The notes under the pieces: generated by a model | What the model was told of the DNA's origin: nothing | Seen by the model: only the letters and a program-made list of their open reading frames with translations | The model's database searches: none | Position numbers and translations under genes: made by a program | Part shown: one piece after another, positions 19,592 to 29,519 of the stretch | Layout: every line of letters begins with the position of its first letter | Position numbering within the stretch: position 1 is the first letter of the stretch | NCBI GenBank assembly: GCA_902363515.1 | Contig: CABJAN010000013.1 | Coordinates: 26,742 to 90,741 of the forward strand | Length of the DNA stretch: 64,000 nt | Direction of reading: 5' to 3' | Source: Bacillota bacterium | GTDB taxonomy: Bacteria; Bacillota; Clostridia; Lachnospirales; Lachnospiraceae

Positions 19592-20091
19592 TTAATACAA
19601 CTTCGCCCCTGCCGGAATCTTATCATCCAGAATCAGAACATTCAGTCCTTCTCTTCCTTCTACAAGATGTGTAGCGGAGATAATCATACCACAGGAATCA
19701 ATTCCCATCATCTTACGTGGCGGAAGGTTTGTGATTGCAAGCAATGTCTTTCCAACCAGTTCTTCCGGTTCATAATAATCGTGAATTCCACTTAAAATCA
19801 CACGATCTTCGCCTGAACCATCATCCAGAACGAACTTCAGAAGCTTCTTAGATTTTGGAACCGCTTCACATTCTTTAACCTTTACAGCTCTAAAATCAGA
19901 CTTGCTGAATGTATCAAAATCAACCATATCTTCGAATAATGGCTCTACTTCCACGTTGGAGAAGTCGATCTCAACCTTCGCTGGTGCAGTTGTTTCTTCT
20001 GCCGGAACAACTACCTTTGCAGCTACCGGAGCAGACTGTGCAGCGTTGTTTGCTTCGTTCTTAGCAGCGCCCTGTGACTTCATTGTCGGGA
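19592..20091 (-). pseudogene. Displaced 3' end of lysS (tRNA-binding domain copy)
   Basis: Encodes 163 codons almost identical to the last 163 of lysS at 27558-29519 (about ten substitutions, for example SAPVAAK versus STPVVAK and DDKIPAGAKLY versus DDHIPAGAKLY). It comprises a linker rich in Ala, Val and Pro and the EMAPII/Trbp111-like tRNA-binding domain (KSDFRAVKVKECEAVPKSKKLL, LPPRKMMGIDSCGMIISA). The internal ATG at 20083 (the Met of PTMKSQG) has no ribosome binding site or promoter, so it is probably silent. It was cut off from the synthetase by insertion of the element at 20092-28057. Confidence 0.88.
20034..20091. repeat. attR: 58-bp direct repeat, right-hand copy
   Basis: Identical over 58 nt to 28000-28057 and in the same orientation. 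It covers lysS codons around PTMKSQGAAKNEANNAAQ. Identity stops exactly at 20091, where lysS sequence gives way to element sequence on this side. Strand exchange by the integrase must have occurred within this block. Confidence 0.85.
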
Positions 20092-20205
20092 GCTTGCAGC
20101 GAGATTTTATATATATCTATTTGCCTCTACGCTTCTCTATTCTTCAAGCTTCTAACAATCTACATTTTTATATAACTCTACAACTTTTATTACAAGTTAC
20201 CACCA

Positions 20206-20227
20206 ATTTGGTGTAAAAGTGGTGCAG
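20206..20227. repeat. Integrase arm-type site candidate, attR side
   Basis: A 22-nt block containing GGTGTAAAAGTGGTG, matching 20 of 22 positions at 27492-27513 in the same orientation. It overlaps the small palindrome CACCAATTTGGTG (20201-20213). A reverse copy of the core GGTGTAAA lies at 21567-21577. Confidence 0.55.
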
Positions 20228-20247
20228 TTGTTGGTGTGCGTCCCTTA

Positions 20248-27425: not shown

Positions 27426-27491
27426 ATCTTTTATTACTAGTTTTCTTTTACACCATTCTTTTGCAGAGTCCTTCTCTTAGACTTTTAAAAA

Positions 27492-27513
27492 ATTTGGTGT
27501 AAATGTGGTGTAG
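27492..27513. repeat. Integrase arm-type site candidate, attL side
   Basis: A 22-nt block with GGTGTAAATGTGGTG, matching the site at 20206-20227 at 20 of 22 positions, 45 nt beyond the lysS stop codon. A reverse TTTTACACCA lies at 27447-27456. Confidence 0.55.
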
Positions 27514-27557
27514 TAACCTGTTTTTCTGTTTAAAATATAGCTTAAAATTTCTTGCTC

Positions 27558-29519
27558 TTAGTACAATTTTGCTCCTGCCGGAATGTGATCATCAAGGATC
27601 AGAACGTTCAGTCCTTCTCTTCCTTCTACAAGATGTGTAGCGGAGATGATCATACCACAAGAATCAATTCCCATCATCTTACGTGGTGGAAGGTTTGTGA
27701 TTGCAAGTAATGTCTTTCCTACTAACTCTTCTGGTTCGTAGTAATCATGAATACCGCTTAAAATCACACGATCTACGCCTGAACCATCGTCAAGAAGGAA
27801 TTTCAGAAGCTTCTTAGATTTTGGAACTGCTTCACATTCTTTTACCTTTACAGCACGGAAATCTGACTTGCTGAATGTTTCGAAGTCTACCATATCTTCA
27901 AATAATGGTTCTACTTCTACATTAGAGAAATCGATCTCAACCTTCGCTGGTGCAGCTGTTTCTTCGACTGGAACAACTACTTTTGCAACTACTGGAGTTG
28001 ACTGTGCAGCGTTGTTTGCTTCGTTCTTAGCAGCGCCCTGTGACTTCATTGTCGGGAACAGCAATACATCACGAATTGCAGCGCTGTCTGTGAGCAGCAT
28101 TACCATTCTGTCGATTCCGAATCCGATACCACCTGTTGGAGGCATACCGATTTCCAGAGCATTCATAAAATCTTCGTCTGTGGTGTTTGCTTCTTCATCA
28201 CCCTGTGCCAGAAGTTCTTCCTGTGCTTTGAAACGTTCTCTCTGGTCGATTGGGTCATTTAACTCAGAGTAAGCATTTGCCATTTCCCATCCGTTCATGA
28301 AGAACTCGAAACGTTCTACATATTCCGGATTTTCCGGTTTCTTCTTAGTAAGAGGAGAAATCTCGATTGGATGATCCATAACAAAAGTAGGCTGGAGCAG
28401 GTGTTCCTCAACAAATTCCTCAAAGAAGAGGTTCAGGATATCACCTTTTTTGTGTCTCTCTTCGTATTCTACATGATGTTCTTTTGCCACAGCTCTGGCT
28501 TCTTTTAAAGTATGGATTTCATTGAAGTCCACACCTGCATATTTCTTAACAGCATCCACCATGGTGATACGCTCAAATGGTTTCCCTAAGTCCATTTCAA
28601 TGCCATTGTACACGATTTTTGTAGTTCCCAGAACTTCCTGTGCCACATGACGGTACAGGTTTTCTGTTAAATCCATCATGCCATGGTAGTCTGTATATGC
28701 CTGGTACAACTCCATTAAGGTAAACTCTGGATTATGTCTGGTATCCAGACCTTCATTACGGAATACTCGTCCGATTTCGTAAACTCTCTCCATACCGCCT
28801 ACGATTAATCTCTTCAGGTATAATTCAAGAGAAATACGCAGTTTAAAATCTTCATCAAGAGCGTTGAAATGTGTCTCAAAAGGACGTGCCGCTGCACCGC
28901 CGGCATTTGCTACCAGCATAGGAGTCTCTACTTCCAGGAATCCCTGTCCATTTAAATAATTACGAATGCTTGCAAGAATTTTAGAACGTTTAATAAAGGT
29001 TTCTTTTACATCTGCATTCATGATTAAATCCACGTATCTCTGACGGTAACGCAGGTCTGTGTTAGTCAGTCCATGGAATTTCTCCGGGAGCGGTTTTAAA
29101 CTCTTAGATAACAGTGTTACTTCTGTGGCATGAATAGAAATCTCTCCGGTTTTTGTCTTAAACACTTCACCTGTGATTCCTACCAGATCGCCGATATCCA
29201 TTTTCTTAAATTCTTTGTAAGACTCTTCTCCTACATTGTCTCTTGCAACATAAGACTGAATAGAGCCCTGTAAATCCTGAATACTGCAAAAAGAAGCTTT
29301 TCCCATAACACGTTTGGACATCATACGTCCAGCCAGAGTAACTGTTTTACCCTCCAGCTCATCAAAAGCATTTTTCACTTCCATGCTATGGTGTGTTACA
29401 TTAAATTTCGTAATCTGAAATGGGTCCTTTCCATTTTCCTGCAAGTCAGCTAATTTTTCACGGCGAACCTTTAATAACTGATTTAAGTCCTGTTCCTGTG
29501 TCTTCTTCTGCTCTGCCAC
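27558..29519 (-). CDS. lysS: Lysyl-tRNA synthetase, class II, with element-derived C-terminal domain
   Basis: Charges tRNA-Lys. 653 residues: OB-fold anticodon-binding domain (about 60-165), class II catalytic core with motif 1 (FLEVETPMLVANAGGAAARPF), motif 2 (YEIGRVFRNEGLDTRHNPEF) and motif 3 (GIGFGIDRMVMLLTDSA), ending LLFPTMK near residue 492. It is followed by a linker and a Trbp111/EMAPII-type tRNA-binding domain (about 540-653). The last 160 codons are supplied by the inserted element, since the att repeat lies at codons around 482-500 and a second, slightly different copy sits at 19592-20091. The gene therefore encodes a hybrid protein. It follows greA by 29 nt. Confidence 0.97.
   Translation of the reverse strand: MAEQKKTQEQDLNQLLKVRREKLADLQENGKDPFQITKFNVTHHSMEVKNAFDELEGKTVTLAGRMMSKRVMGKASFCSIQDLQGSIQSYVARDNVGEESYKEFKKMDIGDLVGITGEVFKTKTGEISIHATEVTLLSKSLKPLPEKFHGLTNTDLRYRQRYVDLIMNADVKETFIKRSKILASIRNYLNGQGFLEVETPMLVANAGGAAARPFETHFNALDEDFKLRISLELYLKRLIVGGMERVYEIGRVFRNEGLDTRHNPEFTLMELYQAYTDYHGMMDLTENLYRHVAQEVLGTTKIVYNGIEMDLGKPFERITMVDAVKKYAGVDFNEIHTLKEARAVAKEHHVEYEERHKKGDILNLFFEEFVEEHLLQPTFVMDHPIEISPLTKKKPENPEYVERFEFFMNGWEMANAYSELNDPIDQRERFKAQEELLAQGDEEANTTDEDFMNALEIGMPPTGGIGFGIDRMVMLLTDSAAIRDVLLFPTMKSQGAAKNEANNAAQSTPVVAKVVVPVEETAAPAKVEIDFSNVEVEPLFEDMVDFETFSKSDFRAVKVKECEAVPKSKKLLKFLLDDGSGVDRVILSGIHDYYEPEELVGKTLLAITNLPPRKMMGIDSCGMIISATHLVEGREGLNVLILDDHIPAGAKLY
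28000..28057. repeat. attL: 58-bp direct repeat, left-hand copy inside lysS
   Basis: Identical to 20034-20091. Beyond 28057 the sequence continues as the lysS catalytic core, whereas beyond 20091 it is element DNA; on the other side both copies continue as diverged versions of the tRNA-binding domain. Confidence 0.85.

Follow-up and report, generated by a model that had tools for sequence, protein, structure and literature searches.

The window analyzed here, a stretch of 64,000 nucleotides from a Lachnospiraceae genome (assembly GCA_902363515.1, contig CABJAN010000013.1, positions 26,742 to 90,741 of the forward strand), carries a mobile element of 7,966 bp, termed element A, which lies inside lysS, the gene for lysyl-tRNA synthetase (LysRS), with the LysRS core on one side and another copy of the PF01588 (Trbp111-like) tail of the enzyme on the other. 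Comparison of this locus with those of its relatives suggests that Tn916-type integrases swap the tail ends of LysRS at a short core sequence, and that the elements doing so stack at this one site; taken in full, we consider this the best explanation of the data, with a probability of roughly 0.88. To the extent that sequence comparisons can tell, element-driven exchange or loss of the LysRS tail in gut bacteria related to Dorea is a widespread system.

The lysS locus and element A

The lysS gene (29519..27558, minus strand) encodes a protein of 653 amino acids (aa) in which the OB and catalytic domains are followed by a C-terminal PF01588 domain at residues 555-650, and Pfam detects PF01588 alone in a second copy of the last 163 lysS codons at 20083..19592. 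The PF01588 scores of the two window tails, termed A (fused to LysRS) and B (displaced), are 77.0 and 82.5 bits, above the gathering cutoff of 27, and the tail is homologous over the domain to the Trbp111/EMAPII-like OB fold (E about 1e-20; structures 1pyb and 8vtz). The two copies, offset by 7,966 bp, share an exact 58-bp repeat (20034-20091 and 28000-28057), and a 56-base pattern derived from it occurs only twice in the window, with 0 occurrences expected from 100 shuffles. Tails A and B are 89.4% identical across 500 nt, with a dN of 0.027 and a dS of 0.54. On the core side of the repeat just 16 of 60 nt are shared, so that the identity ends sharply at 28057/20091, as expected for a crossover at the core-proximal end of the repeat. 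All genes of element A lie on the minus strand, with Int adjoining the far repeat, next to Xis. The features from the lysS core down to tail B are as follows (ORF, open reading frame):

28058..29519, minus strand: host-side lysS core as far as the integration core, containing the OB and class II catalytic domains (Pfam PF01336, PF00152)
28044..28057, minus strand: integration core on the lysS side, reading TCCCGACAATGAAG on this strand (within the 58-bp repeat; the minimal core that relatives share)
27558..28049, minus strand: tail A, fused to LysRS, PF01588 and stop codon, brought by element A (Pfam; tails of relatives)
27491..27514: arm-type repeat, lysS-side end of element A (24-nt family, 92% identical to 20205-20228)
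27373..27439: inverted repeat past the fused tail, terminator-like (31-nt arms, 77% complementary, 5-nt loop)
26663..27013, minus strand: ORF, 116 aa, without Pfam or NCBIfam match
25968..26366, minus strand: ORF, 132 aa, without Pfam or NCBIfam match
24137..25561, minus strand: relaxase candidate, MobV-like (NCBIfam MobV 16.1 bits, far under the cutoff of 100; no Pfam match)
23482..24147, minus strand: primase-like protein with CHC2 zinc finger (PF01807)
22101..23519, minus strand: VapE-like protein (PF05272)
21582..21785, minus strand: Xis, Tn916 excisionase family (PF09035)
20248..21516, minus strand: Int, tyrosine integrase with Tn916-type arm-binding domain (PF00589, PF02920)
20205..20228: arm-type repeat, integrase-side end of element A (pairs with 27491-27514)
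20078..20091, minus strand: integration core on the integrase side (within the 58-bp repeat; relatives)
19592..20083, minus strand: tail B, displaced, a 163-codon open frame with PF01588 and an ATG inside the core (ORF list, Pfam)

The preliminary description of this stretch had placed a mobile element inside lysS, at the junction of the LysRS core and the Trbp111-like tail, and had proposed that the whole tail is replaced by an element-borne one followed by a terminator. The 58-bp repeat, the two tails, and the presence of Int and Xis at the far repeat confirm the element, and both the point of integration (from Pfam domains and junctions) and the replaced tail with a terminator-like hairpin behind it are borne out; the inverted repeat at 27373..27439 probably acts as this terminator. 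The paired 24-nt arm-type repeats contain 13 identical bases, TTTACACCAAATT, which would fit the arm-type sites expected for a PF02920-bearing Int. Among 10 elements in which both junctions were compared, every junction has a core, and 7 elements show exact direct repeats of at least 10 nt, placed as arm sites, at both ends (G300, G157 and G078 do not).

The same junctions narrow down the crossover. Where the element-borne and displaced tails differ, the exact run shared at the core is 10 bp (G005), 15 bp (G110) or 16 bp (G034), and where the two tails are alike it extends to 55 bp (G078) or to the 58 bp of the window; the 58-bp repeat thus combines a short core with homology between the tails. 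G300 has a 17-bp run immediately inside a single-base difference. The 58-bp repeat, earlier suggested to show the crossover, is exact, but the core itself is just 10-16 bp in relatives with differing tails. We place the crossover at about TCCCGACAATGAAG, at the LysRS codons F-P-T-M-K, and not across the whole 58 bp. The window cores read TTCCCGACAATGA at the lysS junction and CTCCCGACAATGA at the other, being the same from the second base onward, and the pattern TTCCC[ACG]ACAATGA is present at both; it equals the 13-bp repeat published for the enterococcal vanD islands (PMC8301612 and PMC10765050, available text).

Stacked elements and displaced tails

The displaced copy had initially been taken for the chromosomal end of lysS, a proposition that was dropped given that the DNA downstream of it matches element ends in Dorea phocaeensis (G002) and in G327. 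The 197 nt past tail B are 95% identical to the DNA after the fused tail of G002 and contain TTGACAACAA repeats; window positions 17632-19643 match the lysS-side end of a G002 element (88.9% identity, 2,012 nt), and positions 18958-19662 match that of a G327 element (95% identity over 707 nt). Because this DNA corresponds to the left ends of other lysS-inserted elements, tail B most likely belongs to a second element in the stack, and the best reading is that it forms, together with the ParA and ParB genes, the left end of an older, truncated element, termed element B. Only two tails were found in the window, which therefore shows neither the rest of element B nor the true chromosomal end. The remnant comprises:

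17632..19591, minus strand: left end of older element B, with TTGACAACAA arm repeats, small helix-turn-helix (HTH) ORFs, ParA and ParB (G002 and G327 matches)
19370..19116 and 19083..18835, minus strand: small HTH ORFs
18847..18062, minus strand: ParA
18072..17617, minus strand: ParB

Adjoining this remnant are a reverse-transcriptase-like ORF (14997-16292, minus strand), which from its sequence we take to be of the group II intron type, and an IS1182-type transposase fragment (16780-17457, plus strand), and these may have broken element B.

Stacking is also seen in Dorea phocaeensis, with three more tails past lysS on the same strand, each having an Int homolog upstream, and thus three stacked elements. 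The middle one is element A (6,297 nt at 97.7% identity, plus another 1,516 nt at 92.2%), and its tail, displaced in this genome, is 98.8% identical to tail A at the aa level. In this genome a B-type element lies in front of A and LysRS bears another tail, whereas in the window A lies in front of B. On the simplest reading, A and B-type elements entered the same site in opposite orders, with LysRS bearing the tail of the last arrival. A genus-level genome search around G002 returned no genome besides G002 itself.

The wider distribution of tails was surveyed in 397 genomes of the family of G002, presumably Lachnospiraceae, of which 354 matched the LysRS query at E <= 1e-30; the family scan scored three candidates per genome, making the tail numbers a lower bound. 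A tail search of 69 picked genomes (those with at least 2 matches in the LysRS scan, plus G002 and G005) gave matches in 49, with 87 rows that were sorted by hand into 58 orphan tails (short frames), 27 fused ones, one MetRS-like (methionyl-tRNA synthetase) and one unclear. In 16 of these genomes lysS is followed, on its own contig and strand, by an orphan tail at a distance of about 7 to 169 kb. A phylum sample of 398 genomes adds two such cases (G427, 72 kb; G493, 3 kb); by our own reading it has LysRS-type tails in 16 genomes (identity 64% or more) and in one more at 56%, the remaining matches resembling MetRS. Scoring of 7,998 candidates from a protein database (about 90-285 aa) gave tail matches at E <= 1e-25 for 7,993, and among the 120 matches listed 9 include part of the LysRS catalytic domain and the others do not. 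Many of the sequences read have unrelated N-terminal extensions ahead of PTMK, and some may be fragments of genes cut at contig ends. Two similar same-orientation copies of one gene end might in principle signal an assembly artefact or a simple tandem duplication, yet the occurrence of the same element (97.7%, 6,297 nt) between two LysRS tails in D. phocaeensis, an integrase plus tail in Faecalimonas umbilicata, and the 16 genomes with a tail downstream of lysS render this practically negligible. A tail scan of viral contigs yielded one locus, L229 (IMG/VR), in which positions 1-1932 encode a tailed LysRS near the contig end, with many opposite-strand ORFs beyond; this is possibly a prophage beside lysS.

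The displaced tails are linked to integrases, as can be seen from either side. After setting aside 3 fused tails, the frameshifted G351 tail and 2 duplicates from 56 rows, 50 distinct orphan tails remained, and in 29 of these the nearest upstream ORF is an Int homolog (43-99% identity), mostly 140-300 bp off. In the 40 upstream ORFs scanned (of 52 listed), PF00589 was detected in 28 and PF02920 in 25. Conversely, the Int homologs of the 49 genomes with tails were placed relative to those tails, a count that drew on 44 of the 87 tail rows: a LysRS tail follows directly downstream (<700 bp) in 27 of the 39 homologs with 44% identity or more, and in 0 of the 10 with 40% or less.

Displaced tails might also be retained as working free-standing Trbp111-like proteins, in keeping with the precedent of Trbp111, which is itself free-standing, and with the fact that many of them are open and intact, the core frequently containing an ATG. 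This appears unlikely given that inspection by eye found no ribosome-binding site ahead of the tail B ATG in the window and that the in-frame upstream sequence varies by element; recent displacement explains the intactness equally well.

Exchange and loss of the tail domain

If ends are exchanged at the core, the histories of the LysRS core and tail should differ, and this incongruence, foreseen in the preliminary description, was found. Among 110 tailed lysS genes (5,995 pairs; L117, with another C-terminal extension, was left out), core identity and tail identity correlate weakly (r = 0.41). Tails of at least 95% identity accompany cores below 80% in 45 of these pairs, and tails of at least 98% accompany cores below 75% in 12 (cores 68.6-74.9%). 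For instance, the window and G288 tails are 98.8% identical and their cores 78.6% (nucleotides), and loci L065 and L135 have identical tails on cores of 72.7% identity; the reverse is seen in L134 and L139, with cores 91.6% and tails 65.4% identical. A tail type recognized by its SLDGVNKKNDVN start unites 12 genomes with tails 79.9-100% identical and cores 68.6-89.0% identical, 11 of which have the DNA directly after the stop in common. This group, which had been delimited by its tails ahead of any core tree, requires 2 changes on the tail tree and 10 on the core tree, where well-supported branches force 9 of them (the shuffles average 11.7, and 21 of 500 are as low). Its monophyly is rejected on the core data by the approximately unbiased (AU) test (p = 3.2e-5).

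Such differences could in principle have arisen through homologous recombination or transfer of lysS pieces, with no involvement of an integrase. The tails are homologous over about 490 bp, and in G119 (L044) the DNA past the stop is about 96% identical to that of the window, with the tail at just 71.9%, suggesting that tail and element end can be reshuffled. As a general explanation this is improbable: the integrase core is where the histories switch, tails are accompanied by element DNA, integrases adjoin the displaced tails, and short ends take the place of tails. Homologous exchange may nevertheless add to the mosaic. In G300 (L085) the DNA after the displaced tail is 99% identical to that after its own fused tail and has no arm repeats; the element here seems to have captured a host-like end together with its downstream sequence.

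Tails are not only exchanged. In a non-random sample of 150 lysS loci (the best matches of the family scan and a few obtained via integrases), 111 are tailed, 38 tailless and one is cut; the tailless include G351 (L107), in which a tail follows the core out of frame, reflecting either real domain loss or an assembly error, and the tailed include L117. The latter locus (G063:C12) continues from the LysRS core into an in-frame 214-aa extension devoid of PF01588, with a sub-threshold match to the HD domain (PF01966, 21.1 bits, cutoff 22), and possibly represents a third kind of LysRS end. A degenerate core is found in 148 of the 150 loci; being coding and conserved anyway, its presence alone proves nothing. 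Tailless relatives have a few codons only beyond the core. The LysRS of G005 ends with FPTLKTLN and a stop just past the core, that of G110 with PIDK and a stop, and that of G267 with TVKE and a stop, and each of these three genomes has an intact tail beside an integrase, 7, 119 and 169 kb downstream, respectively. As read from these junctions, the element end brings the stop codon and LysRS loses its tail domain. G034, whose core is nearest to that of the window (93% aa), is likewise tailless, with a tail beside an integrase on another contig. The proposition that each integration swaps a domain hence holds for the exchange of tails, but some ends leave LysRS without the domain. On the core tree the tailless state requires 28 changes, 15 of them forced; it is still more clustered than expected by chance (shuffle mean 33.7 changes, with none of 500 shuffles as low).

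Arm repeats were counted in the DNA after the stop codon. In the 108 tailed and 34 tailless loci covered (8 of the 150 have too little sequence there), at least 2 arm repeats occur within 200 nt after the stop in 20 tailed (0.36 in shuffles) and 19 tailless (0.10 in shuffles) loci. The arm pattern was drawn from the loci themselves, and a pattern-free count of direct repeats is the fairer control; it gives 18 of 108 tailed (shuffles 3.4) and 14 of 34 tailless (shuffles 0.9).

The main competing interpretation is that these are ordinary cases of 3'-end regeneration, in which the tails are interchangeable and the domain scale is incidental, the site being the end of the canonical gene. In its favor, tails A and B are alike in protein (dN 0.027 against dS 0.54), and elements of Enterococcus and Streptococcus use the same site with hardly any coding sequence beyond it. 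The removal of the domain by element ends in G005, G110 and G267 is more than restoration, and tails exchanged on close cores can share no more than about 65% identity; on balance we place this interpretation a little short of even odds. For exchanges of one tail for another, a neutral swap is a serious rival.

Proposed mechanism, significance and known systems

In the mechanism that we propose, a family of Tn916-type Int proteins would recombine a core of about TTCCC(G/A/C)ACAATGAAG at the LysRS codons F-P-T-M-K. Inside its left boundary each element would carry its own gene end, which may be a Trbp111-like domain of about 145-165 aa with a stop codon or, alternatively, 3-7 residues and a stop codon, followed by arm-type repeats. 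Integration would create a hybrid lysS from the host core and the element end, and the previous end would move to the integrase side, where it would be kept as an open, unfused frame. Since the core junction would be reusable by the next element, elements would stack and LysRS would carry whichever end came last; on excision the earlier end should return. The sequences themselves show the anatomy of the elements and their junctions, the stacking, the neighboring integrases, nearly identical tails joined to dissimilar cores, and LysRS genes that are devoid of the domain and have a tail past the element. We infer that Int catalyzes these steps, that the order of elements reflects their arrival, that excision brings back the former tail, and that the tail matters to the function of LysRS. 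The integrases likely target the canonical LysRS end, that is, the usual bacterial end, and the Trbp111-like domain added beyond it likely became part of the exchanged end.

Several observations weigh against this interpretation. Neither excision nor an empty site was seen for element A itself, and one study obtained no evidence that its vanD element excises (PMC10765050). In 21 of the 50 orphan tails the nearest ORF is not Int-like (two have no upstream ORF in a short sequence), and 12 of the 39 close Int homologs are not beside a tail. Right ends were read for 6 of these 12: three have a displaced short end at the core (PTMKTLGGKDQ, PTMKSLDK and PTMKPLD, each followed by a stop), and in the other three no core was seen; 2 further exceptions stop within about 0.4 kb of a contig end. 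L003 (74%) and L004 (69%), which resemble the window Int more than most homologs do, have no core within 500 bp, raising the question of whether they represent a related integrase with another target. In 4 of the 10 junction pairs (G267, G327, G157 and G275) the cores differ by at least one base and lack an exact run of 10; published repeats, in the text available, likewise differ by up to one base. By pattern, 66 of 108 tailed and 11 of 34 tailless lysS have no arm repeat, so that many lysS ends need not be element-borne, and the proposition that elements caused all tailless LysRS was dropped on account of these 11.

Insertion at the end of a gene is commonly regarded as harmless, since the element restores the gene; the part restored here is a whole domain of an essential enzyme. 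More tentatively, and at odds clearly below even, the accessory domain might be a mobile cassette across the family, with elements having created or spread the fusion, exchanging it between species and switching it on or off, and with displaced tails serving as a reversible reserve. If so, element turnover may tune lysine-tRNA metabolism. The system makes it testable whether a synthetase accessory domain can be selectable cargo of mobile DNA. Element traffic of this kind can also mislead LysRS phylogenies and annotations, the displaced tails being annotated as 'methionine--tRNA ligase subunit beta'.

Integration in lysS and replacement of a gene end with a displaced copy are both already in print. 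For exchange or removal of a whole synthetase accessory domain, with stacking, searches of an open-access library with few subscription journals showed no report. Prophage e14 in icd of Escherichia coli likewise brings a gene end that yields a hybrid enzyme and a displaced copy; it exchanges 165 bp, or 54 C-terminal residues with two conservative changes, but the exchanged part is not a separate domain, and the available text describes no removal (PMC11148124). The window element shares the Tn916-type module (Int with PF02920 and PF00589, Xis with PF09035). In an integrative mobilizable element a relaxase would be expected, and the candidate here scores 16.1 bits against the MobV cutoff of 100. 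Tn916 itself is described as having low specificity (PMC4701971, available text), whereas the lysS integrases use one lysS site. Trbp111 captures the 3' CA end of tRNA (PMC11286949, available text); unlike Trbp111, the window domain is joined to LysRS via a linker that starts at the integration site.

The closest parallels are other elements in lysS. Integrative and conjugative elements (ICEs) of Streptococcus in the lysS 3' end have tyrosine integrases and 13- or 17-bp repeats that coincide with the gene's very end or lie close to it, with few codons affected, in contrast to the whole domain in the window (PMC4701971, available text). The vanD islands Tn6711, Tn6712 and Tn6713 and a related ICE sit in lysS of Enterococcus, with content of Clostridiales origin and circles detected for Tn6711 and Tn6713 (PMC8301612 and PMC10765050, available text). 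The suggestion that the target is not the extreme 3' end of a gene applies to the domain junction seen here, but the site is a known lysS 3'-end target in these two genera, and becomes a domain junction because the present bacteria carry a tail beyond it. The vanD islands share the 13-bp core TTCCC[ACG]ACAATGA with the window element, and both outward primers for vanD circles (PMC8301612, available text) match the element ends of G110 exactly, with one matching G142. The fixed core is a landmark by which elements of this kind, vanD-island relatives among them, can be located in gut bacteria. Elements of the vanD-island type integrate at TTCCCNACAATGA, with the Enterococcus repeat 17 bp from the lysS end, so that no domain is exchanged there; in the window about 490 bp of lysS lie beyond the core, and the element, of about 8 kb, brings its own Trbp111-like tail, unlike the vanD islands.

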